From Chloroflexota bacterium (GTDB lineage Bacteria > Chloroflexota > Anaerolineae > Anaerolineales > Villigracilaceae): a stretch of DNA of 64,000 nt. Position numbers and translations under genes: made by a program. Below the pieces are notes generated by a model. That model was not told the DNA's origin. It did not search any database and saw only the letters and a list, made by a program, of their open reading frames with translations. The DNA is taken from NCBI GenBank assembly GCA_026390015.1, contig JAPLGS010000157.1, positions 9,782-73,781 of the forward strand. The letters are read 5' to 3'. Positions 2 through 10,539 of this stretch are shown here, in pieces (within the stretch, counting starts at the first letter, position 1; each line of letters opens with the position of its first letter).

Positions 2-925
2 ACACGCACTCTGGAAGAAATTGTCACGCTATTTGAGCAGGCTGGTATTCGGCCTTTGCTACTTAAAGGTCTGGCTCTGGCTTACGAATATTATCCAGAC
101 CCTGCTCTTCGTCCGATCAGAGATATTGATCTCTTGTTGAAGCAGAATGAAATTATGCCCGCATTGGATTTGCTTGCTGGCGCAGGTTTTCGTGTGGATG
201 CGCCTCCAGTTTCGCGAATCCCCGGCCTGCTACCGAAAGAACTGACAGCGGATTCGCCCTTACATGAGGGAATGATCACTCGCATCGAATTACATCATTA
301 CGATTCGAGGCACCAATTACTCAACGACAGCACGCCGGATGATAACTTTATCGGATTCGACGCATCACCGCATAAGCTACTGATCGGCAAGAGTGCTGTT
401 TACGTACCTGCACCTATGGATACGCTCAATTATTTATTCAGGCACCTAAAGAAGCATTTATTAGTGGGAACCACGAATAGCCCATTGTTGCTTAAGTGGG
501 TTGCGGATATTGTCAGCGTTGTGGAAAGGCATACCGAAACATTAGATTGGGATTACCTGCGGCGGCATGATCCGGCTTTTTTGGAACGCCTCGAAGTATT
601 TTATAGCCTGACCCCCATGCCCGAAATTTACGCAAAGATCATACCTGTCGGGCAGGTCACATTCCCTTCAGGGCTCAACCAGTACCCGAAAGGCTGGCCG
701 AATGCGAAGATCAAAAAATGGAGGCAAGTTGGATTATTGCGATTTTTATGGCAAACTTTTACCCCGCCTTCCGAGTGGTGGTTACGCCTTTACTATGGTA
801 TTGGTAGGGGATCTTGTTTCTGGTATGGACAGGTCGTCCATCGCCTACGAATAATTGGATTAATGGTTTGGTTGATGATCGGCAAGATCCTGAATATCGT
901 GTCAAAATATAATCTCCAAAGGTAA
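2..925 (+). CDS. Nucleotidyltransferase-family protein, 5' end outside window (lasso tailoring candidate)
   Basis: The reading frame is open to the first base of the window, so the N-terminus is missing; the TTG at 56 is internal, not the start. The visible part begins with a hydrophobic helix and then LLKGLALAYEYYPDPALRPI followed by RDIDLLL. This is the signature of the uncharacterised nucleotidyltransferase family (NTP_transf_5), with the acidic DID pair as the metal-binding site. Members of this family occur in lasso-peptide clusters; in the pseudomycoidin system one adds sugars to the peptide tail. The gene converges on the lasso operon and shares its terminator, so tailoring of that peptide is a reasonable inference. 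The substrate cannot be read from the sequence. Confidence 0.75.
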   Translation, partial: TRTLEEIVTLFEQAGIRPLLLKGLALAYEYYPDPALRPIRDIDLLLKQNEIMPALDLLAGAGFRVDAPPVSRIPGLLPKELTADSPLHEGMITRIELHHYDSRHQLLNDSTPDDNFIGFDASPHKLLIGKSAVYVPAPMDTLNYLFRHLKKHLLVGTTNSPLLLKWVADIVSVVERHTETLDWDYLRRHDPAFLERLEVFYSLTPMPEIYAKIIPVGQVTFPSGLNQYPKGWPNAKIKKWRQVGLLRFLWQTFTPPSEWWLRLYYGIGRGSCFWYGQVVHRLRIIGLMVWLMIGKILNIVSKYNLQR

Positions 926-971
926 TTCAGAAATTCAATGGCCACCATCATGGGCCTTTATAAAATAAATA

Positions 972-1010
972 AAGAGGCTTGTTCTATTAATTGAACAAGC
1001 CTCTTATTTT
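972..1010. terminator. Bidirectional intrinsic terminator
   Basis: A perfect 13-bp inverted repeat, AAGAGGCTTGTTC at 972-984 and its complement at 993-1005, encloses an 8-nt loop. T-rich tracts flank it on both strands. It separates the rightward nucleotidyltransferase gene from the leftward lasso operon and can end both transcripts. Confidence 0.9.
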
Positions 1011-1030
1011 TGATTGATCGTAAGGATTAT

Positions 1031-1189
1031 TTATCGGTTATTAGTAGATCCACTGGAACCGTCGGTAGGTGAGCCGGCCCCCGCTGTAGTGTCAAGGCTC
1101 ACAGAAATACGCGTAACTTCGGGTTTGTGCCAAAGCAGGAGTTCCTGGGTAGGCTTATCAATCAATATTGTGGTTATTTTGGTTTCCAT
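1031..1189 (-). CDS. Putative lasso-peptide precursor (A protein), 52 aa
   Basis: This small gene starts at the ATG at 1189, behind an AGGAG Shine-Dalgarno sequence. The 52-residue product has a leader containing WHKPEV at 20-25 and ends SLDTTAGAGSPTDGSSGSTNNR-like at 31-52. It fits the B1-recognition pattern Y/W-x2-P-x-L/V-x9-10-T that precedes lasso cores: W20, P23, V25, T35. Counting strictly from that motif, the core begins at Gly37 and closes on Asp43 (7-residue ring). By analogy with paeninodin-type precursors (T-x-A-G-x-G), it begins at Ala36 and closes on Asp43 (8-residue ring, core AGAGSPTDGSSGSTNNR). It is the last gene of the operon, right before a strong terminator. The tail lacks bulky aromatic plug residues, leaving Arg52 as the only large one. 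Function is inferred from motif and context. Confidence 0.8.
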   Translation of the reverse strand: METKITTILIDKPTQELLLWHKPEVTRISVSLDTTAGAGSPTDGSSGSTNNR

Positions 1190-1267
1190 GGATTTGTTCT
1201 CCTATAATAATTTAAATTTTATCTATTTTACGTGAAGGATGGTTTAAACACAAGGTTGAATCGGTTC

Positions 1268-1717
1268 TTAATTACCAATAAAAACTGAAAGAATAGTAAA
1301 AGTTTCATGGCCGCTTGCGCCAATTAATATTCCATTACCGGCCTTCAACCAGGCATGGGCGGATAATTTTCCATCCGAATCTTTTTTCATACCCAGGAAA
1401 AGCCGGGTTTCCAATCCGTACCGTTTGAGCATAAATTTTCCGGTTATAGCCTGGGCAAGACAGGCGCTTTCCCATGGTGTTTGTCCCGCGGCTGTCTCAA
1501 CAGCCCAGCTCACACGCCGCGTCCACTCAGGCGGATCACCTTGATCAGGATCTTCGGGCAGGTCAAGGGTTTGGCGTCCGAGTCGGGGAGCTATAAATTT
1601 AAAAGGTACCACCAGCAGAGCGGCGCGCGTGACTCCCAGTCTTAAGAATGCATCCAATAATAAAAAACGATCAGCCCAGGATAGCTGCAAAAATTTCTTA
1701 AGTCTTTTGGCTGTCAA
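1268..1717 (-). CDS. Lasso peptide B2 protein (transglutaminase-like leader protease)
   Basis: The 149-aa size and pattern fit the lasso B2 / Transglut_core3 family of cysteine proteases, which remove the leader peptide before cyclisation. The catalytic Cys lies in ESACLAQA (about residue 77) and the His in SAHAWLKAG (about residue 120). The preceding FMLKRYGLETRLFLGM segment is typical of the family. The start overlaps the end of the PqqD-like gene by 20 nt, which suggests translational coupling of B1 and B2. The precursor gene follows 78 nt downstream. No defects are visible. Confidence 0.88.
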   Translation of the reverse strand: MTAKRLKKFLQLSWADRFLLLDAFLRLGVTRAALLVVPFKFIAPRLGRQTLDLPEDPDQGDPPEWTRRVSWAVETAAGQTPWESACLAQAITGKFMLKRYGLETRLFLGMKKDSDGKLSAHAWLKAGNGILIGASGHETFTILSVFIGN

Positions 1718-1991
1718 TCCGGATCATCCTATCTTTATATAGCTTTTCAAGGAAAGAGAGCACATCCGCCTGGCACTCTTCAAGTGAAACAGCATAGCGT
1801 GTTTGCAATGCGGCAACAATATCTTGAACTGCGGAAGGCGATTCAATTAGCCCCCAGATCTCGGCTGCGATGGGGTCAAGGGAGTAGTATGCGCCCTCTT
1901 CAACATTTAACATCATCAGTTCACTGTTTACGGGCGCTGTCACAAACCCGCTTGCGCGGGAAATTTGGGTTCCCAGGTTTATCGTTGTCAT
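1698..1991 (-). CDS. Lasso peptide B1 protein (PqqD-like RiPP recognition element)
   Basis: The 97-aa PqqD-family protein has the classic core MMLNVEEGAYYSLDPIAAEIWGLI (residues about 26-49, key residues LN, G-YY-L, A-IW). A helical segment with an E-C-x-x-D-V-x-x-FL pattern follows. Such proteins bind the leader peptide and deliver it to the B2 protease and the cyclase. The gene follows the sulfotransferase by 20 nt and overlaps B2. A good ribosome site (AAGGAG) lies just upstream of the ATG. Confidence 0.9.
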   Translation of the reverse strand: MTTINLGTQISRASGFVTAPVNSELMMLNVEEGAYYSLDPIAAEIWGLIESPSAVQDIVAALQTRYAVSLEECQADVLSFLEKLYKDRMIRIDSQKT

Positions 1992-2011
1992 CGGAGCAAC
2001 TCCTTATAAAA

Positions 2012-2875
2012 TTAAAATAGCGGATCATTATTCTGATCCAAATATCCAAAGCGCCGCATCACATCAGCATTAACCTCTATAATTTTATCAGCCAATTCTG
2101 AATTCAATTCCTCGCGCCAAGTGCCTGATCGTCCCTGACGAAAAAAGGGCGCATCGGCCCGCATGGTACGTTCTTTAAAGCCTGCGCGGCTTTCCTGCTC
2201 CTGGATCGATTCGAAGCGTGACAATTCTACAGCTTTAGAGAGGCGAATCGGATCAAGATCCAGCTTCAGGGCGCGGATGATGCGCTCAAAGGCTGCTTCT
2301 GGCTGGGTCAGCATATCTTCATAACGGATCACAGTCACTGCCAGACCAGACTCATCCACCCACGAACGGACATGCGCGCTCCATGAAAGCAAACGCTGAG
2401 GGATCTGCGGCGGTAGGAGTTTTGGATTCTCATAGACGATCCCATCCTGATCGCATAAATTTTTAACCTCCTGTTCGAGTGTGCGCCCCGAGTGATGGGC
2501 ATAGGATACTGCCACATCCAATGGATTACGGATCAAGTAGATAACCGCAGAAGTTACATCGCTGGGGAAGAGCATTTCGCAGTCACTGTTGCGGATGCAG
2601 GCGTCGTGAACTTTGATATAGAGAGGGTGCGCGATGTGAAGCGCCATCTGGCGGTACACGTGCGGCCGAAAATCCGCAATATCATCAAAGGATAAGTCGG
2701 AGGCTTCCACCCCTGCCCAGCGGTCAAATAAATCGCGGTCGCTTGCGATCGGGCCGCCTTTCAGGTGATTAATATCTGCAGGTTGATCCGCATCGTTCAG
2801 ATAATTGGTCAGAAAAATGCGGGTCCAGGTATTGCCGGATTTTGGATAGGAAGCAAGCCAGTTGATCTGATTCAT
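2012..2875 (-). CDS. PAPS-dependent sulfotransferase, lasso tailoring candidate
   Basis: The 287-aa protein opens with INWLASYPKSGNTWTR, the 5'-phosphosulfate loop (YPKSGxTW) of cytosolic-type sulfotransferases. The 3'-phosphate motif VIYLIRNPLDVAVSYAH lies near residues 110-127, and the C-terminal FRQGRSGTWREEL corresponds to the RxGxxGxW motif. Together these show a PAPS-binding enzyme that moves sulfate to a hydroxyl or amine. The ATG overlaps the kinase stop codon (ATGA), and B1 follows 20 nt downstream, so it is embedded in the lasso operon. The likely target is a Ser or Thr of the precursor peptide. Substrate assignment is inference; a role in another pathway is less likely given the tight operon. 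Confidence 0.85.
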   Translation of the reverse strand: MNQINWLASYPKSGNTWTRIFLTNYLNDADQPADINHLKGGPIASDRDLFDRWAGVEASDLSFDDIADFRPHVYRQMALHIAHPLYIKVHDACIRNSDCEMLFPSDVTSAVIYLIRNPLDVAVSYAHHSGRTLEQEVKNLCDQDGIVYENPKLLPPQIPQRLLSWSAHVRSWVDESGLAVTVIRYEDMLTQPEAAFERIIRALKLDLDPIRLSKAVELSRFESIQEQESRAGFKERTMRADAPFFRQGRSGTWREELNSELADKIIEVNADVMRRFGYLDQNNDPLF

Positions 2876-3792
2876 ATAAGCGGCTGCAAATCCTTTTTAA
2901 AATCCGCCTCGATCATGTCGGCCATTTCTGTCAGGCGGAATGGCAGCTGAGGCCGCGTCAAGCGTGCAATATAAACCTGCGAAGCTATTTTGGCAGCGGT
3001 CATAAAATGCCATTCGCGCAAACCAAGCCCAACCAGCGTTAATTTCTGCCAGGTATTATCCAGCAAGCCATTAAAACGTTTTGTTTGCCCGAGAGATTCC
3101 AATATAAATTGCGGAGAATTATGCTGGCTCAAAAGATAAATGGCGTGCAAGGTTGTTGGCTGGGGGTCAAAATTATCGTATGTGGGGGCGGCGAATTTAT
3201 CATATTGTTGTAAAACGCGCCGCAAGCCGTCTGTGGAACGACCCAGGGCTTCAGCCGAATCAGCCCACAGTTTAACTTGTGGAAAGCCGGGCAGCACATG
3301 CAGACGGTTATTCTCGTCGAAGGTGATCGCCAGCATATCGTCTGATAACATTTTATAGCCGCGCTGTAAAAATGCGCTGACCAGAGTGGATTTGCCCGCC
3401 CCGGAATGTCCTGCAAACAAGACTGCGCCGCGTTCTGTATGGATGCCGCTGACATGCAAAGCAAACATTTTCCGTTGATGCAGTAATATGGACAAACAGG
3501 AACTCAATAGGAAGGTGCGTATATTATCTTCAGAAATCGGATCCACAGGTTGAATGATGATCTCGCGGCCGGCCCGAACCAGGAAACGGCCAACCCGTTT
3601 AAGATTTAGGAGAAACAAGCCTGGGGACGTCTGCCAACGCGCACCGGAATCAACTGGACTCTCAAGCTCCTGCGGGACTTCGCCGAAACGAATGACGATC
3701 TCGGGTGCGGCGCCAGATTCATCCACTAATAGTTCCGGGCAAAATATAGGAGATTCAAGCGAAAGGCCAAATACTTTATAGTAATAAGACAT
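2872..3792 (-). CDS. HPr-kinase-like protein, lasso-peptide kinase candidate
   Basis: The 306-aa protein starts MSYYYKVFGLSLESPI and has a Walker A loop GHSGAGKST near residues 125-133. A downstream SDDMLAI matches the HPr kinase Asp-Asp site. Stand-alone HprK-like proteins of this length accompany lasso clusters of the paeninodin type, where they phosphorylate the precursor's C-terminal Ser. Here the predicted peptide ends in Arg, so the phosphosite, if any, must be an internal Ser or Thr. The gene follows the cyclase by 9 nt and overlaps the sulfotransferase by 4 nt. True HprK (with an N-terminal sensor domain, next to ptsH) is unlikely. Confidence 0.85.
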   Translation of the reverse strand: MSYYYKVFGLSLESPIFCPELLVDESGAAPEIVIRFGEVPQELESPVDSGARWQTSPGLFLLNLKRVGRFLVRAGREIIIQPVDPISEDNIRTFLLSSCLSILLHQRKMFALHVSGIHTERGAVLFAGHSGAGKSTLVSAFLQRGYKMLSDDMLAITFDENNRLHVLPGFPQVKLWADSAEALGRSTDGLRRVLQQYDKFAAPTYDNFDPQPTTLHAIYLLSQHNSPQFILESLGQTKRFNGLLDNTWQKLTLVGLGLREWHFMTAAKIASQVYIARLTRPQLPFRLTEMADMIEADFKKDLQPLI

Positions 3793-3801
3793 GGAATATC
3801 A

Positions 3802-5703
3802 CTAACCTTCTTTTTCAAGATTTGAAAGATACAGACCGGCCATCAGACCGCGCGTCAAAATTGTAACCGCAAGATGTGTATTCTGTACATTCACATCTTT
3901 TTGAAGCGCATTCCATACATTCCGCATACGCTCAACGGCTAAATATTGATGTGCCAAGTGACAGGATTCTACTTGTGAGAGTGCAGCTTCCATTTCAGCG
4001 GGAGAATCCAGCAGGCGTTGACCGAGGTCTGCAGCTTGACGTCCACGGCGACGGTTCAAGCGTACTTCATCTGGTAGTAATCCCTGCATCGCCTGACGGA
4101 TCAACCAACGATCCTTGCCCTGTGGGCCAATGTATTCGCGGTCCGGCACAGATAGAGTAAATTCCATTACACGTTTATCAAAGGTCGCATCCCGAACCTC
4201 CATGCCATAGGCAGCTCCGTTTTCAGCCCAATTACTGCCTAGAAAAGATTCGCCCGGTTTAATGATCGCGTAGCGGTGCATGGAGGCCGGCTGCCAGTCT
4301 TCAACATTTGAAATCTTGCCAGCATTCTGGTTATATTGATCCGAGAGATTGAGGCGCTTTACAAGATCAGGATGGATTGCACTAGCCTGCCATTTGTGGT
4401 CAATGTTTATAATTCGATGGATCAATCCGTTTAAGGTTGGGCGAAGGCTTGTTGGTGTGATGGAGAATAGCCCATATCTAATGATGCTTTTCCACTTCCC
4501 GCGTTTGGTATATCCACGAAAAATATCGCGGGTTGATTTACCTGTCCAGGAAACGGTCGCATTCCCGCCTTGTCCCGTCATCAATGTTCTTATGCCGTCT
4601 TTTTGAGCAGTAGCCATCAATTCCTGAATCCAATACATATTTCCGGCTGCATGTCCCGGTTCGCCATGTACATGCAAGCCATGCAGCATTGACTGAATGG
4701 GTGTAAGATTTCGGGCCTGAATCTCAAACAGGTCAACATTGCCGGCAAAATTTGCAGTTGCTTTTGCAAAAGGAAGTTCGTCACCGAATCCTTGACTGCC
4801 AACAGCGTTGCTGACGTCATATAGCGGTACGGAAGTGTAAGCAGTCAATCTTTGATCCTGCTCTTTAAGTGCACGCGCCATTAATGCAGTGACCGAACCA
4901 GAATCCAGCCCTCCGCTGAGGGTAACGCCGGTTGAACTGTGAGACCGCAAACGGTCTCGGACGGCGCGATCATATACTTCCAAAAATCCGTCTACATAAT
5001 CGTCTGAATTCTTCAGGCGCGTTTCTCTAACATCTTCCAAGCGCCAATATTGATTGACGAGGATGGAATGATCCACTAATGTCAATGTATGGGCTGGTGG
5101 TAAACGTTTTAGATCCTCTTCGATGGTCTGCGGCCCGTGATGTGCGGTCCAGGAAATCAGTACACAAGCCAGATAAAATTCATTCAGCCTTCTTGGAATT
5201 CCCAAAGCGAATAGGGCTTTACGATCGGATGCAAAGGCAAAACGATGTGCATCTGCATAGTAATACAAGCTGGTATTGCCAAAATGATCGCGAGCCAGAA
5301 ACAATTTCTTTTCATTTGGATGCCAGGCTGCGAACGACCAATCGCCCAGCAAATGGGAAGTGCAATCCTGGCCCCAGATTTCATAGGCTCTTAAAATGAG
5401 ATCCCCATCCGGGATCTCTTGAGCGTCACGAAAATTAATATCAAGTTCCGCGCAAAGTTCCCGCCGATTATCAAGCCGCGCCTCGGCCGTCAACACAAAT
5501 CCGCGATTTGATTTCCTTGGCATATTTTCATGGATCGATTCGGGTGTGTTGAATAGTAGCAAACTCCCAAAGCCAGCAGAGCCTTCATTCCACATATTTC
5601 CACCGTTCGGTCCCCAATGCGCCATAGCCTGATGCATGGCAGCAGGGAATTTAGGATCGATCGGCAATCCGTCCAAATTAATGATTCCATAAATTCCGCT
5701 CAA
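3802..5703 (-). CDS. Lasso peptide cyclase (asparagine-synthase-like, isopeptide-forming C protein)
   Basis: The protein has an N-terminal class II amidotransferase-like domain and a C-terminal ATP-pyrophosphatase domain with the SGGLDSGSV loop (about residues 263-271). This is the architecture of lasso cyclases, which adenylate the Asp side chain and close the macrolactam. I place the start at the TTG at 5703, because GGAGG sits 5 nt upstream and the product then begins MSGIYGIINLDG, like AsnB. A GTG at 5715 adds four residues but overlaps that ribosome site. Residue 2 is Ser where glutamine-dependent AsnB has its nucleophile Cys, so glutaminase activity is not expected, as in other lasso cyclases. 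It is the first gene of the operon. Confidence 0.88.
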   Translation of the reverse strand: MSGIYGIINLDGLPIDPKFPAAMHQAMAHWGPNGGNMWNEGSAGFGSLLLFNTPESIHENMPRKSNRGFVLTAEARLDNRRELCAELDINFRDAQEIPDGDLILRAYEIWGQDCTSHLLGDWSFAAWHPNEKKLFLARDHFGNTSLYYYADAHRFAFASDRKALFALGIPRRLNEFYLACVLISWTAHHGPQTIEEDLKRLPPAHTLTLVDHSILVNQYWRLEDVRETRLKNSDDYVDGFLEVYDRAVRDRLRSHSSTGVTLSGGLDSGSVTALMARALKEQDQRLTAYTSVPLYDVSNAVGSQGFGDELPFAKATANFAGNVDLFEIQARNLTPIQSMLHGLHVHGEPGHAAGNMYWIQELMATAQKDGIRTLMTGQGGNATVSWTGKSTRDIFRGYTKRGKWKSIIRYGLFSITPTSLRPTLNGLIHRIINIDHKWQASAIHPDLVKRLNLSDQYNQNAGKISNVEDWQPASMHRYAIIKPGESFLGSNWAENGAAYGMEVRDATFDKRVMEFTLSVPDREYIGPQGKDRWLIRQAMQGLLPDEVRLNRRRGRQAADLGQRLLDSPAEMEAALSQVESCHLAHQYLAVERMRNVWNALQKDVNVQNTHLAVTILTRGLMAGLYLSNLEKEG

Positions 5704-5720
5704 GTAAACCTCCACATTAA

Positions 5721-5942: not shown

Positions 5943-5981
5943 AAAAGACCTCCGAGTTTTCAAAAAACTCGGAGGTCTTTT
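5943..5981. terminator. Strong intrinsic terminator of the pdh operon
   Basis: AAAGACCTCCGAGTTTT and its complement form an almost uninterrupted stem of about 17 bp with a very short loop and a T8 tract. It begins a few bases after the E2 stop codon and isolates the pdh operon from the lasso operon. Confidence 0.92.
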
Positions 5982-5983
5982 TT

Positions 5984-7216
5984 TTATAACAACATCCTAA
6001 CAGGATTTTCCAGATACCCCGCCAGCGCTTGCATGAATTGCGCTGCCTCAGCTCCGTCGCTGACCCGATGGTCAACAGAGATGGTGGCTTTCATTTTCCA
6101 GCCAATTTTCAACTGACCACTTTCCACTACAGGAACTTCTCTCGCGGAAGAGATCGCCAATATCCCAGCTTCGGGCGGATTGATGATGGCGATGAATTCT
6201 TCGACATCATACATGCCTAAATTGGATGTGGAGAATGTTGAACCATCAATATCATCAGGTTTGACTTTGCCTTCACGCGCGCGCGTCGCCATCGATTTGA
6301 CTTCACCCGAGATTTGACGCAAAGTTTTCTGATCGGTATCTTTGACAACTACGGTCATCAATCCGCCGGGAACTGTTACAGCCACGCCGATATTGACGTG
6401 ACCGAATTGAATGACTTCGCCGCCTTTGAGAGTCGCGTTCAAGTTGGGGAATTGACGCAGCGACAACGCCACGCCTTTCAGAATAAAGTCATTCACCGAA
6501 ACTTTTTCATGTTCTGGCAAATACGCATTGACCTGCTTGCGCATGTCCATCAACGCGTCCATTTTGAATTCGTGCGTCACGTAAAAATGCGGAATGGTTG
6601 ACTTTGATTCAACGAGTCTGCGCCCGATGGCTTGACGTAGCTTTGTGGTTTGAATCGTTTTATTTTCAATGGATGAGATTGGAGGTCCAAGAAAAGCCAC
6701 AGATTGGCTGACCACTGGTGATAGTTTGCTGCTTGATAGCGCCGCCTCAATATCCTTGCGGACAATTCGTCCGCCGGGGCCGGTGCCTTGAATGTGTGAC
6801 AAGTCAACTTTTTGGTCGCGGGCGATCTTCTTCGCGAGCGGGCTGGCTTTGACAGAATCAACATCCAGCGCAACCGATATTTGTTGAACAGAATCAACTA
6901 TCGGCGTGGATCGAGTCGCGGGCTTTTCATCCGCAACTTTTTTACTATTCACTGATGACTGACCGCTAATCACTTCTCCCGCACTTCCAATAATCGCGAT
7001 CGGCGCATTCACCGGAACCATCGTGCCCTGATCCACAATAAGTTGCAGGACAACGCCGCTCGCAGAAGATTCAACTTCGACGGTGGCTTTATCAGTTTCA
7101 ATTTCAGCAAGCACATCGCCTTTGTTGATGTTCTCGCCGACTTGTTTTACCCAGCGCACGAGCAAACCCTCGGCCATATCGAAGCCAAGTTTGGGCATGG
7201 AAATTGTTTCAGCCAT
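5984..7216 (-). CDS. pdhC: Dihydrolipoamide acyltransferase (E2) of a 2-oxoacid dehydrogenase complex
   Basis: The 410-aa E2 carries one N-terminal lipoyl domain with the lipoylated Lys in EIETDKATVEVES (about residues 40-52). A Pro/Ser linker and a peripheral-subunit-binding domain (SPLAKKIARDQKVDLSHIQG, about 125-144) follow. The catalytic acetyltransferase domain ends in SVDHRVSDGAEAAQFM, with the DHRxxDG active site. It transfers the acyl group to CoA in the pyruvate or a related dehydrogenase complex. Its start touches the E1beta stop (ATG within TAATG), showing operon coupling. No E3 gene is in the window. Pyruvate is the most likely substrate; acetoin dehydrogenase is an alternative. 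Confidence 0.9.
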   Translation of the reverse strand: MAETISMPKLGFDMAEGLLVRWVKQVGENINKGDVLAEIETDKATVEVESSASGVVLQLIVDQGTMVPVNAPIAIIGSAGEVISGQSSVNSKKVADEKPATRSTPIVDSVQQISVALDVDSVKASPLAKKIARDQKVDLSHIQGTGPGGRIVRKDIEAALSSSKLSPVVSQSVAFLGPPISSIENKTIQTTKLRQAIGRRLVESKSTIPHFYVTHEFKMDALMDMRKQVNAYLPEHEKVSVNDFILKGVALSLRQFPNLNATLKGGEVIQFGHVNIGVAVTVPGGLMTVVVKDTDQKTLRQISGEVKSMATRAREGKVKPDDIDGSTFSTSNLGMYDVEEFIAIINPPEAGILAISSAREVPVVESGQLKIGWKMKATISVDHRVSDGAEAAQFMQALAGYLENPVRMLL

Positions 7217-8190
7217 TATTTCAAAACCTCCTTGACCGCCGCGACGATGTCGGCCACCTGCGGGAGCGCGGCTTGTTCGAGCGTGCGGTTGTAGGGCAGC
7301 GGCACTTCTTTTTGCGCCACGCGGATGATGGGCGCGTCGACGTAATCAAACGCTTCTTCATAAATGCGGCTGACGATCTCGGAGCCGATGCCGTAAGATT
7401 TCCAGCCTTCTTCTACAACCACCGCGCGATTTGTTTTCTTGAATGACTCGATGATCGGTTCCATGTCGAGCGGGCGCAGTGTGCGCAGGTCAACCACTTC
7501 AACTTCGATTCCTTCTCTCGATAATTCTTCGGCGGCTTTCATCGAAAGTTCGAGTCCTTTGCAATATGTGACAATGGTCACGTCTTTGCCGGCGCGCTGT
7601 ACTTTTGATTTGCCAATTGGAATAGTGTACTCGCCCTCAGGCACTTCGCCGCGGACTTGATACATAGTGGCATGTTCGATGAAAAGAATCGGATCATTCG
7701 ACCTGATCGCTGATTTCAAAAGACCCTTGGCATCTTCCGGCGTCCCAGGCGACACAACTTTCAAGCCGGGGAAATGCGCGAAGATCGCATCCGGAGTCTG
7801 CGAGTGCGTCGCCCCAAGTTGACGACCACCGCCGCCGACAGCGCGAATCACCAAAGGTAATGTGAACTGTCCGCCAAACATATAATGTAGTTTCGGAGCC
7901 TGGTTGACGATGTAATCCATCGCAGAGAATCCAAAGTTGATGGTCATCAATTCCGCGACGGGACGCTGCCCCACCATAGCCGCACCGATCGCGCCGCCGA
8001 TGATCGCGTTTTCAGCGATGGGTGTATCTTTGACACGCATCGCGCCATACTTATCGAAAAAGCCTTTGGTGACAGCATATGTACCGCCCCAGACGCCAAC
8101 CTCTTCGCCCATGATGAATACCTTGGGGTCGCGGTCCATTTCTTCCATGAGAGCTTGCGAGATCGCCTCGCGCATTGTTATTTTTGCCAT
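7216..8190 (-). CDS. pdhB: 2-oxoacid dehydrogenase E1 component, beta subunit
   Basis: The 324-aa protein begins MAKITMREAISQALMEEMDRD and contains GEEVGVWGGTYAVTKG, typical of the TPP-binding E1beta subunit. The transketolase C-terminal domain is seen in VVDLRTLRPLDMEPI. Together with E1alpha it decarboxylates the 2-oxoacid and hands the acyl group to E2. Length is standard. It lies between E1alpha and E2 in the conserved order and directly abuts E2. The 110-nt spacer to E1alpha holds a small palindrome. Confidence 0.93.
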   Translation of the reverse strand: MAKITMREAISQALMEEMDRDPKVFIMGEEVGVWGGTYAVTKGFFDKYGAMRVKDTPIAENAIIGGAIGAAMVGQRPVAELMTINFGFSAMDYIVNQAPKLHYMFGGQFTLPLVIRAVGGGGRQLGATHSQTPDAIFAHFPGLKVVSPGTPEDAKGLLKSAIRSNDPILFIEHATMYQVRGEVPEGEYTIPIGKSKVQRAGKDVTIVTYCKGLELSMKAAEELSREGIEVEVVDLRTLRPLDMEPIIESFKKTNRAVVVEEGWKSYGIGSEIVSRIYEEAFDYVDAPIIRVAQKEVPLPYNRTLEQAALPQVADIVAAVKEVLK

Positions 8191-8255
8191 GTTTAATTCC
8201 TCTTTTGGGGCGGATAAATCCGTTCCAACTTTTGCGATGATGCCCTTTGTCGATT

Positions 8256-8273
8256 AGTCCACACAGGTGGACT
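8256..8273. repeat. Short palindrome in the pdhA-pdhB spacer
   Basis: AGTCCAC and GTGGACT flank ACAG. The palindrome sits in a stretch with further short complementary pieces (GCGACTAAAGTTGTAGC on the minus strand). It resembles a degenerate dispersed repeat and could also weaken transcription between the two subunit genes. Confidence 0.45.
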
Positions 8274-8299
8274 TTGCAATTGTTGCTGTTGCTACAACT

Positions 8300-9256
8300 T
8301 TAGTCGCAATAAATATCTGTATACAACTCTTCCATCGCAGGCTCGGGACTCGCCTCGGCAAATTCTACAGCCTTTGCAACTTCCTCTTCCACGCGTACTT
8401 CGATTTCATCCAAAGCTTTGGCAGTGGCAACCTTCTTTTCCAACAACTGTTTATTGAAAATTCCGATCGGATCATTCTCCTGCCACTTCTTCACTTCCTC
8501 CGCTTTGCGATAGCGTTCCGGGTCGCCCATCGAATGTCCACGGAAACGATAGGTGTCAATCTCCAGCAGATAAGGCTGTGAATTTTCGCGGACGAATTTC
8601 AACGCATCCTTCGCGGCATCATAAACCTTTAGCACATCCATGCCGTCCACTTGACCATTCTTCATTCCATAGCCTTCCGCTTTTTGGCGGATCTCGGTCA
8701 CAGCCGATGCGCGATCAACTGAGGTACCCATGCCGTATTGATTATTTTCGCAAACCCACAGCACACGCAATCCCCAGGTCTTGGCGATGTTCAATGCCTC
8801 GTGAAAATATCCGATATTGGTCGCACCGTCGCCGAACATGCAAATCGTGATATTATCGTTGCCAGCATATTGATCGCCAATGGCGAATCCCGAAGCGATC
8901 GGCAGGTGACCGCCCACGATGGCGTGCCCACCCCACATATTTTTGGATGTATCCGCCATGTGCATCGAGCCGCCCTTGCCTTTAGACATACCCGTCGCTT
9001 TGCCAAGCAATTCCGCCATTACTTCATTGGCAGAGATGCCGCAGTTCAAGGCCACACCGTGGTCACGGTAGGCCGTGATCACCCGGTCGCGAGGTTCACG
9101 CGCCGCGATCAAACCCGTCGAAACAGCCTCTTGCCCAATGTACAGGTGCATAAAGCCGCCGATCTTGCCCGCCTGATACAACTCCGCGCCGCGTTCTTCA
9201 AGGCGGCGGATCAAAACCATCTGGTAATACAAATCAAGTTGTTGTTCTTTCTTCAT
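8300..9256 (-). CDS. pdhA: 2-oxoacid dehydrogenase E1 component, alpha subunit
   Basis: The 318-aa E1alpha has the TPP motif GDGATNIGYFHEALNIAKTW (GDGx about 24 to N) near residues 142-161. The C-terminal phosphorylation-loop region is RFRGHSMGDPERYR. The start follows GGAGAAAATA, a usable ribosome site. It is the first gene of a three-gene operon (E1alpha, E1beta, E2) ending at the strong terminator at 5943-5981. A short hairpin (CCAGAG/CTCTGG, 9289-9305) lies in the divergent spacer upstream. Confidence 0.93.
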   Translation of the reverse strand: MKKEQQLDLYYQMVLIRRLEERGAELYQAGKIGGFMHLYIGQEAVSTGLIAAREPRDRVITAYRDHGVALNCGISANEVMAELLGKATGMSKGKGGSMHMADTSKNMWGGHAIVGGHLPIASGFAIGDQYAGNDNITICMFGDGATNIGYFHEALNIAKTWGLRVLWVCENNQYGMGTSVDRASAVTEIRQKAEGYGMKNGQVDGMDVLKVYDAAKDALKFVRENSQPYLLEIDTYRFRGHSMGDPERYRKAEEVKKWQENDPIGIFNKQLLEKKVATAKALDEIEVRVEEEVAKAVEFAEASPEPAMEELYTDIYCD

Positions 9257-9399: not shown

Positions 9400-10539
9400 A
9401 TGAATTGGCTCACTGGCGGAACTCATGGCGAATCAAAAAGGCTGATAGCCCAACTTGCGGATTCCACGAAACGGGATATCGCCGCACAGGAGTTGATCAA
9501 ACTCGGTGCAGACGCCGTGCCGTCACTAATCGACGCGCTTCAGACTCAAGACTTGAGCCTGCTTCTGCGCTACCAGCAGATCCTCGCCCGAATCCCTTCC
9601 GCCACCCCCGCATTGACGAAGACTCTTTCAACAGCGCATCCGATCATTCGTGCAAGAGTTGCCGAAGTATTTGGCATTAGCAAAGATAAGTCAGCAGTTC
9701 CCGTCTTACTTGACGCATTGAAAGGGGAATACTTTACCGTCCGTTCACGCGCCGCACTTGCGTTGGGAAATATCGGTGACCCGCGTGTCATCCCAGTTCT
9801 TTTGACTCATCTTAAAGACAAGGAAGATGAAGTCCGTTCAGCCGCATGTATTGCGCTTGGTAAATTCCGCGATCCTGATACTTTCGAAGAAATTGCAAAT
9901 ATTTTAGTGGACGATATAAAGATAGAAGTCCGCCAGGCCGCTGCGCTTGCGTTAGGAGACACAAAACATCCCGCCGCGATTCCCTTTTTAATGGAAGCTC
10001 TGCATGATTCTTTTTGGTGGTTTGAACGTGAACAAGCCGCCACTGACCTGTTGAATGCGATTGAGAAAATGGGCGCCGCAGTTGTTGAACCATTGATCAT
10101 GGCGCTTGGCGATAAAGAAGGGACGGTCCGCAAATTTGCCGCGATCGTTCTCGGAAATTTGCGTGATCCACGCGCGATCGATGAGTTGGGCATGGCGTTA
10201 TATGATCTGCATACTGAAGTTGGGAAAGCGGCTTCAGACTCGCTCGCAAAATTCGGTTTGCAGGCAGTGGGTGTATTAATCGATTCTATTCATCATCCCG
10301 AAGCGGGCATTCGAGAGAATGCAGTAGTTGCTTTAGGGAAAATCAAGGATGTTCGAATTACTCCCGTTTTGATAGATATGCTTCTCGACCCTGACCGCGA
10401 CGTGCAAAAACAAACCATGCACTCGCTTGGACAGTTGCACGATCAACGCGCAGTACCTGCCTTGCAGGAGATCGCCGCCAATCGCGCAGACAGGGAAATG
10501 TCTGCGCTGGCGAAACAAATCCTTGAGTCTATGAAATGA
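9400..10539 (+). CDS. HEAT-repeat (PBS-lyase-type) protein
   Basis: The 379-aa protein is built almost wholly of 30-31-residue helical repeats. Typical units are VRSRAALALGNIGDPRVIPV, VRSAACIALGKFRDP and VRKFAAIVLGNLRDPRAIDE. They match the E-Z / PBS-lyase HEAT-like family, which forms alpha-solenoids for protein binding. I see no catalytic domain, signal peptide or membrane helix, so it is probably a cytoplasmic scaffold. It is monocistronic, with a leaderless-type promoter. The partner is unknown. Confidence 0.85.
   Translation: MNWLTGGTHGESKRLIAQLADSTKRDIAAQELIKLGADAVPSLIDALQTQDLSLLLRYQQILARIPSATPALTKTLSTAHPIIRARVAEVFGISKDKSAVPVLLDALKGEYFTVRSRAALALGNIGDPRVIPVLLTHLKDKEDEVRSAACIALGKFRDPDTFEEIANILVDDIKIEVRQAAALALGDTKHPAAIPFLMEALHDSFWWFEREQAATDLLNAIEKMGAAVVEPLIMALGDKEGTVRKFAAIVLGNLRDPRAIDELGMALYDLHTEVGKAASDSLAKFGLQAVGVLIDSIHHPEAGIRENAVVALGKIKDVRITPVLIDMLLDPDRDVQKQTMHSLGQLHDQRAVPALQEIAANRADREMSALAKQILESMK

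Follow-up and report, generated by a model that had tools for sequence, protein, structure and literature searches.

The Chloroflexota bacterium assembly GCA_026390015.1 (class Anaerolineae, family Villigracilaceae), from a group that has received little study, contains, on contig JAPLGS010000157.1, an operon for what is almost certainly a lasso peptide, a class of ribosomally synthesized and post-translationally modified peptide (RiPP). Within this operon lie genes for two putative tailoring enzymes, an HPr-kinase-like protein and a 3'-phosphoadenosine-5'-phosphosulfate (PAPS) sulfotransferase, and a nucleotidyltransferase gene converges on it. The stretch analyzed here, hereafter the window, comprises 64,000 nucleotides (positions 9,782 to 73,781 of the forward strand). 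From its open reading frames and profile searches, the operon spans positions 1031-5715 of the minus strand, transcribed in the order C, K, ST, B1, B2, A, with the following features.

3802-5715, minus strand: C, lasso cyclase (asparagine-synthetase-like macrolactam synthetase), from NF033535, PF00733 and PF13537
2872-3792, minus strand: K, predicted HPr-kinase-like peptide kinase, from PF07475, TIGR04352 and an AlphaFold2 model
2012-2875, minus strand: ST, PAPS sulfotransferase, from PF00685 (85.1 bits)
1698-1991, minus strand: B1, PqqD-like leader-recognition protein (RiPP recognition element, RRE), from PF05402 and NF033536
1268-1717, minus strand: B2, leader peptidase (transglutaminase-like), from PF13471 and NF033537
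1031-1189, minus strand: A, precursor of 52 amino acids, from its reading frame, a WxxP leader motif and two homologues in the sister locus L060
972-1005, both strands: bidirectional intrinsic terminator with a 13-pair stem, terminator-like on plus and minus
2-925, plus strand: N, NTP_transf_5 nucleotidyltransferase, 3' part, from PF14907

An initial annotation of this DNA had proposed that cyclase, B1, B2, precursor, kinase and sulfotransferase are joined in one operon and that a nucleotidyltransferase gene converges on its terminator, and we recover every one of these elements; the Chloroflexota genome does hold a lasso cluster accompanied by three enzymes that may tailor its peptide. The K and ST genes overlap by four bases, A is the last gene, and the terminator (-21.7 kcal/mol, z -7.1, as folded on the minus strand) is common to the operon and to N. 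No exporter was seen among the open frames of the cluster.

The best NCBIfam match of C is NF033535 (369.6 bits), which, though below the model cut-off of 525, comes with linkage to B1 and B2, with matches to PF00733 (Asn_synthase, 91.6 bits) and PF13537 (80.4 bits), and with the ATP-pyrophosphatase motif SGGLDS. The profile searches identify both partner proteins. B1 scores 72.8 bits against PF05402 (PqqD), above the cut-off, and 76.6 against NF033536 (lasso_PqqD_Bac), where the cut-off is 80; B2 scores 79.6 bits against PF13471 and 93.8 against NF033537 (cut-off 33), and its Cys86 and His121 are invariant in an alignment of 12 rows. That the locus is a lasso-peptide biosynthetic cluster we regard as close to certain.

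The product of gene A returned zero family matches in the profile searches. Its ATG is preceded by an AGGAGA site, its leader is METKITTILIDKPTQELLLWHKPEVTRISVSLDTT (1085-1189) and its predicted core AGAGSPTDGSSGSTNNR (1031-1084), and it carries the features by which we recognize a lasso precursor: the WxxP motif of the leader (here WHKP), a Thr at -2 and an Asp as residue 8 of the core. Together these three predict an eight-residue ring closed between Ala1 and Asp8. The core ends in Arg and contains neither a C-terminal Ser nor a Tyr. The same leader and Asp8 features are kept in L060, L068, L098, L156 and L093, and a leader and core pattern like that of A is found in L068, L098, L156, L093, L211 and L212. 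L060 is a sister locus from the same genus, its operon DNA 95.6% identical over 4713 columns and its gene order matching that of the window, C-K-ST-B1-B2 followed by two precursors. The L060 leaders are nearly identical to that of A while the cores diverge (AKLGSNTDGLGGATPL and YGPGSPTDASASGSTNAP), and such near-constant leaders joined to variable cores are typical RiPP precursor behavior. In L060 the B2 gene is broken into two overlapping frames (L060:5157-5607), through either assembly error or decay.

The kinase is a case in which sequence and predicted structure speak with different force. By sequence, K resembles an HPr kinase weakly, with 22.2 bits against PF07475 (Hpr_kinase_C; cut-off 33.3) and 36.5 bits, likewise below the cut-off, against TIGR04352. 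It carries a Walker A motif (GHSGAGKST), an SDD motif and His113, and across an alignment of 38 rows His113, Gly133, Lys134, Ser135 and Asp151 are invariant. The AlphaFold2 model built from 38 aligned sequences has a predicted local distance difference test score (pLDDT) of 96.9, and the top solved structures that Foldseek returns for it are phosphoenolpyruvate carboxykinases (PEPCK), with the HPr kinase/phosphatases (HPrK/P) 3tqf (rank 39) and 1kkl (rank 45) further down. The predicted fold is thus clearly that of the PEPCK/HPrK group, and it is by this fold that K is best described as HPr-kinase-like.

ST carries the motifs of a PAPS-dependent sulfotransferase, with Lys12, His90, Arg116, Ser124, Arg246 and Gly248 invariant in an alignment of 10 rows. 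In this superfamily the Lys belongs to the 5'-phosphosulfate-binding (5'-PSB) motif, the His is catalytic, Arg and Ser form the 3'-phosphate-binding (3'-PB) motif, and an Arg-x-Gly lies near the C-terminus. The closest solved chains by sequence are Teg14 (E 6e-14) and Teg12 (E 1e-13), both of which act on glycopeptide antibiotics and not on ribosomal lasso peptides; StaL ranks below SULT1B1 and SULT1C3 among the solved matches. PAPS supply in this genome is indicated by a 576-residue frame matching adenosine 5'-phosphosulfate (APS) kinase (APS_kinase, PF01583, E 1.4e-56). Six more sulfotransferase-family matches lie elsewhere in the genome. The APS kinase frame stands on genome contig C117 (L200, L203, L208) with two further sulfotransferase-family matches, possibly a separate sulfation locus.

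N extends beyond the start of the window, and its full frame (L002:9483-10706) encodes a nominal 407 residues, with an assembly gap inside: the Ns at L002:9750-9781 directly precede window position 1. PF14907 matches at 128.8 bits over the full frame and 110.0 bits over the part in the window, and N is the sole PF14907 match above the cut-off in the genome. A nucleotidyltransferase fold with a DxD motif is supported by this score, by the RDID of N, whose DxD is invariant in 28 rows, and by the structural model of a relative from L075, for which a single solved structure falls below E 0.001 (MenT1, E 1.6e-4) and FKRP and antibiotic nucleotidyltransferases match more weakly (E > 0.001). One might suppose from the gap in N and the split B2 frame of L060 that the cluster is decayed or silent. 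We consider this very improbable: every frame of the window's operon is open, and none of the invariant alignment positions of K, ST and B2 is lost.

How general is the pairing of K with ST? The B2 family PF13471 occurs in 30 of the 152 genomes of the window's family (27 above the cut-off), and of the 30 regions there besides the window's own, 17 lack both ST and N but have K, B1 and B2 (C as well in 13 of these), and six have ST. A wider set was obtained from a pattern scan for ST over one genome per GTDB-220 species, which gave 585 confirmed stretches; the 80 most similar to the window's ST, together with plasmid and Chloroflexota loci, make up a non-random sample of 105 distinct ST genes, and B1 or B2 accompanies 79 of these. 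In 75 of the 79 the gene immediately upstream of ST, on the same strand, is K (aligned parts -200 to 400 bp apart). As to the four exceptions, L070 is a fragment, L119 lies at a contig start, the genes of L086 are divergent, and in L151 no K was detected. Among the 41 lasso-associated ST loci with at least 7 kb of flank on both sides, K is adjacent in all 41, C is present in 37 and N in 29. From the K stop codon to the aligned ST start the median distance is +4 bp, and 69 of 76 pairs fall between -10 and +30 bp. The 79 lasso-associated STs come from at least 11 named phyla, and those with an adjacent K from at least 10.

The 26 STs without B1 or B2 have K upstream in 12 cases (several of these lie at a contig end or have C or N nearby), downstream in one (L124) and not at all in 13, and in those 13 C and N are likewise absent. 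As a feature of the genomes the K-ST coupling is firm, and the best explanation for it is that the two enzymes act jointly on the peptide. Single-frame fusions of two of these families, ST with a second kinase in L114 (9995-11785) and B2 with a nucleotidyltransferase in L098 (11074-12960) and L085 (11117-12742), fit such joint action. The six sulfotransferase-family matches elsewhere in the genome would favor a reading in which the extra enzymes serve some other small molecule and are mere neighbors of the lasso genes, but the tandem recurs beside B1 or B2 across 10 named phyla or more, and we consider this reading very unlikely. The kinases that partner ST are clustered on a tree of 125 kinases, with 16 label changes against a shuffled mean of 35.2, and are not of one origin; a single clade of ST-partner kinases is rejected.

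Several ST clusters contain two kinase genes, one directly before ST (L039, L041/L075, L064, L072, L074, L078, L079, L097, L157). A plasmid search with C gave only Priestia and Paenibacillus comparison clusters of use. The Tistrella mobilis plasmid pTM1 (L062:4391-8727) carries a K-ST pair and a gene annotated as a nucleotidyltransferase, and two precursor-like peptides that end in Ser are encoded close by; no cyclase lies within 7 kb, and the best cyclase-like match is ~38 kb away on the plasmid.

These gene families have been noticed before. In the excerpts of the sources on which our literature statements rest, kinase, putative ST and nucleotidyltransferase genes are reported from lasso clusters of Firmicutes, with joint presence in a single cluster left unstated (PMC8498205), and an HPr kinase and ST are reported from lasso clusters of anaerobes (PMC4289311). 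The Firmicutes clusters of Zhu et al. 2016, as described there (PMC8498205), have the window's extra gene families beside the lasso core genes, with ST at the cluster start and its function unstated, whereas in the window K directly precedes ST. In the paeninodin cluster of Paenibacillus dendritiformis, too, an HPr-kinase homologue accompanies the lasso core genes (PMC8498205); the window differs in its added ST, in having A last and in that no exporter was seen. The psm cluster for pseudomycoidin (Bacillus pseudomycoides) also combines kinase, nucleotidyltransferase and lasso precursor, with phosphoglycosylation reported on a C-terminal Ser and no ST mentioned in the parts of these accounts available to us (PMC8498205, PMC9266682, PMC7533575).

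We found no sulfated lasso peptide and no lasso ST tested for function in a literature search that covered mostly open-access titles and the starts of abstracts. The initial annotation had held the combination of three enzymes to be a rarity, and in this sense, that no characterized lasso ST came to light, it stands; as to the combination itself, K, ST and nucleotidyltransferase lasso loci recur across phyla, so that uniqueness is rejected, and the gene families had already been reported. Its likening of the cluster to those of paeninodin and pseudomycoidin fares similarly: K and the nucleotidyltransferase are present, but the acceptor on which the analogy rests is missing from the precursor. 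Reviews describe lasso kinases as C-terminal Ser modifiers (PMC8498205, PMC9266682), and the paeninodin kinase is reported to act there (PMC8498205), whereas the window's core ends in Arg. What looks new, judged from sequence, is accordingly not the gene combination but the substrate, a precursor that would offer K no C-terminal Ser.

A precedent for a non-C-terminal acceptor is found in the LPP family of Bacillota (lppA-K-B-S-D-N), which shares with the window an HPrK-like kinase, an NTP transferase and an RRE, and in which LppK is reported to modify Ser3 near the N-terminus of a non-lasso core (PMC13381572). Unlike the window, the LPP core set, as the excerpted account gives it, names no cyclase, B2 or ST and uses signal-peptidase-like leader removal (PMC13381572).

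Which residue might then serve in the window's precursor? We compared cores extracted by an automatic filter requiring Thr at -2, which gave 59 precursors from 41 ST loci and 32 from 30 kinase-only loci; the filter admits a few false rows (e.g., the second L002 row) and misses others, and many ST loci yielded none. Cores ending in Ser make up 38 of the 59 from ST clusters against four of the 32 from kinase-only clusters, a contrast confounded with descent, the kinase-only loci being nearly all from Chloroflexota and the ST loci from many phyla. Among 17 cores with a Trp leader, Gly4 and Asp8, 13 have Ser or Thr at position 5 (Ser/Thr5) and no C-terminal Ser, while the other four show the reverse, a C-terminal Ser and no Ser/Thr5 (p 0.0004); the 13, the window's included, come from eight loci, with L085 alone giving four. 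Over ring positions 1 to 8, these 13 window-type cores have Ser/Thr counts of 0, 4, 1, 0, 13, 0, 4 and 0, and each has a tail Ser/Thr as well. More broadly, Ser/Thr5 occurs in 14 of 20 ST-cluster cores with a Trp leader and no C-terminal Ser, and the 32 such cores with a C-terminal Ser have no peak at position 5 (eight there, 11 at position 1). The cores of kinase-only clusters in the window's family (L032-L058) likewise lack a C-terminal Ser; 13 of 15 have Ser/Thr3, possibly, to go by these sequences, a second non-C-terminal acceptor for such kinases, and 11 of 15 have Ser/Thr at position 9. That ST serves in general to sulfate Tyr is rejected: Tyr is absent from the window's core and occurs in one of 13 sister-type and 20 of 38 C-terminal-Ser cores.

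The core type also tends to go with the descent of the kinase. We mapped the combination of Ser/Thr5 with a missing C-terminal Ser onto a tree of 41 kinases that partner ST; this label requires three changes against 7.3 in shuffles, with six of the eight labelled kinases in one supported clade in which Chloroflexota are joined by a locus from Burkholderiales. Mapped onto the ST tree, it requires two changes against 7.4. The clade's kinases were then used to search 400 genomes of the phylum, and six new places (L211-L216) were fetched. The L211 and L212 kinases join the clade, which now has eight rows and support of 100/98, and their cores, YKTGSNTDAGASGNVTD and KSTGSGSDGGSATK respectively, both have Gly4-Ser5-Asp8 and no C-terminal Ser; the L211 locus stops inside ST, and its kinase match holds one TGA. 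The L213 kinase groups with the C-terminal-Ser kinases, and its core ends in Ser. L214-L216 have K without ST and lie outside the tree, and the final tree omits L109 for its long branch, the fragmentary L085 and any second pair of a locus.

The explanation that we consider probable is that of a lasso operon with a K-ST tailoring pair drawn from a widespread module, and with N in addition. That K and ST act on the window's own peptide is very likely, and N can be expected, with a little less assurance, to do so too. We infer the chemical steps, their order and their sites as follows. As family knowledge would have it, B1 would bind the leader, B2 would cut after Thr(-2)-Thr(-1), and C would close the eight-residue ring of AGAGSPTDGSSGSTNNR from Ala1 to Asp8. 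If the core is as predicted, its sequence excludes classical phosphorylation of a C-terminal Ser, and because of this a ring or tail Ser/Thr is proposed for K, which would most likely phosphorylate the linear precursor, with ring Ser5 as first choice and a tail Ser/Thr as second. Ser5 is a reasonable candidate for the site, at somewhat worse than even odds. ST would move sulfate from PAPS to a second hydroxyl, of a Ser/Thr or of a sugar, Tyr being excluded in the window since the predicted core has none. N, by analogy with its homologue PsmN, would probably attach a sugar, or else a sugar-phosphate or nucleotide, to the phosphate. That the K-ST target has moved, in the window's sub-family, from C-terminal Ser to ring Ser/Thr5, placing phosphate and sulfate, with or without sugar on the phosphate, on the ring or tail of one lasso, we put forward tentatively, and regard as rather doubtful.

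How ST and N relate to the phosphate can be approached through the distribution of N. In the window's class, for loci with C plus either B1 or K and flanks of at least 6 kb, N is present in all six with ST and in five of 16 without (Fisher p 0.012); dropping the requirement for C gives six of seven ST loci against seven of 27 (p 0.007), and over all 78 distinct B2 loci (family places, class places to E 3.7e-16 and ST-found class loci) N is present in 10 of 17 with ST against 15 of 61 without (p 0.016), related loci making all of these p values generous. Such an association, the K-ST adjacency, the match of the N relative's model to MenT1 (and weakly to FKRP and antibiotic nucleotidyltransferases), and the report that PsmN adds hexoses to the phosphate of pseudomycoidin (PMC8498205) would all suit a relay on one side chain, in which K phosphorylates a Ser/Thr, N glycosylates the phosphate and ST sulfates the hexose. 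However, a host glycosyltransferase is not excluded for pseudomycoidin (PMC9266682), the window's N lies on the opposite strand, and 12 of the 41 intact ST loci have no N nearby, from which it follows that ST need not act on a sugar added by N. N is a frequent and not an obligate partner of ST, the latter proposal being rejected by those 12 loci, and the one-side-chain relay we hold to be unlikely.

The same 12 loci sit comfortably with independent action of K and ST on separate Ser/Thr residues, for example Ser5 and a tail Ser/Thr, with N modifying the phosphate, and the presence of both Ser/Thr5 and tail Ser/Thr in 13 of 13 window-type cores provides the hydroxyls that this would require. 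It does not by itself explain the tight tie of ST to an adjacent K, and we see it as a real possibility that falls short of an even chance. A third arrangement, in which ST would sulfate the phosphate or polyphosphate built by K to give a mixed phosphate-sulfate group, is purely inferential, and we know of no precedent for a PAPS sulfotransferase with a phosphate acceptor, which counts against it. It would account for the near-obligate K-ST tandem and for the few hydroxyls of short cores such as AGGPGITDAGFLS, and related kinases are reported to put several phosphates on one Ser (PMC8498205, PMC13381572); we nonetheless give it little credence.

A number of observations weigh against our preferred explanation. 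The scores of C and of B1 (as lasso_PqqD_Bac) lie under their NCBIfam cut-offs. N is convergent to the operon and outside it, its frame crosses an assembly gap, and it is absent from the fetched flanks in 12 of 41 intact ST loci. The core of L111, which has a Tyr leader, carries Ser5 and a C-terminal Ser together. L078 and L085 have the Ser/Thr5 pattern, yet their ST-partner kinases stand outside the clade (L078 has two kinases, and that of L085 is fragmentary). L213 would have been expected, from its search score alone, to be of the window type. The test on new loci was not blind, their cores having been read before the tree was built, and since the loci are related, the p values for core pattern and lineage are generous. 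Conservation of Ser/Thr5 may be due to folding rather than to modification, and the kinase clade may go with the core type only because whole clusters are inherited together.

As for the surroundings, three minus-strand frames directly upstream of the operon (window 5943-9256) look by eye, without a family search, like pyruvate-dehydrogenase-type genes (E1 alpha, E1 beta, E2), and an 18-pair hairpin at 5943-5981 is terminator-like on the plus strand. On the far side of N, ABC/FtsX-type frames (L002:1736-5552), considered as a possible exporter and likewise named by eye without a family search, have no evident link to the cluster.

In these clusters a kinase lineage paired with ST goes with precursors that lack a C-terminal Ser and retain a ring hydroxyl. 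If the site has indeed moved, phosphate and sulfate would be installed inside the ring, offering a new handle for lasso engineering and solubility, and the product would be, as far as we are aware, the first lasso peptide to carry sulfate and also the first to be phosphorylated in its ring; PMC literature searches, judged from their listings, returned neither. With the K-ST tandem present beside lasso genes in at least 10 named phyla, what the literature mentions briefly becomes a single enzyme pair open to testing, whose substrates are small and clean.

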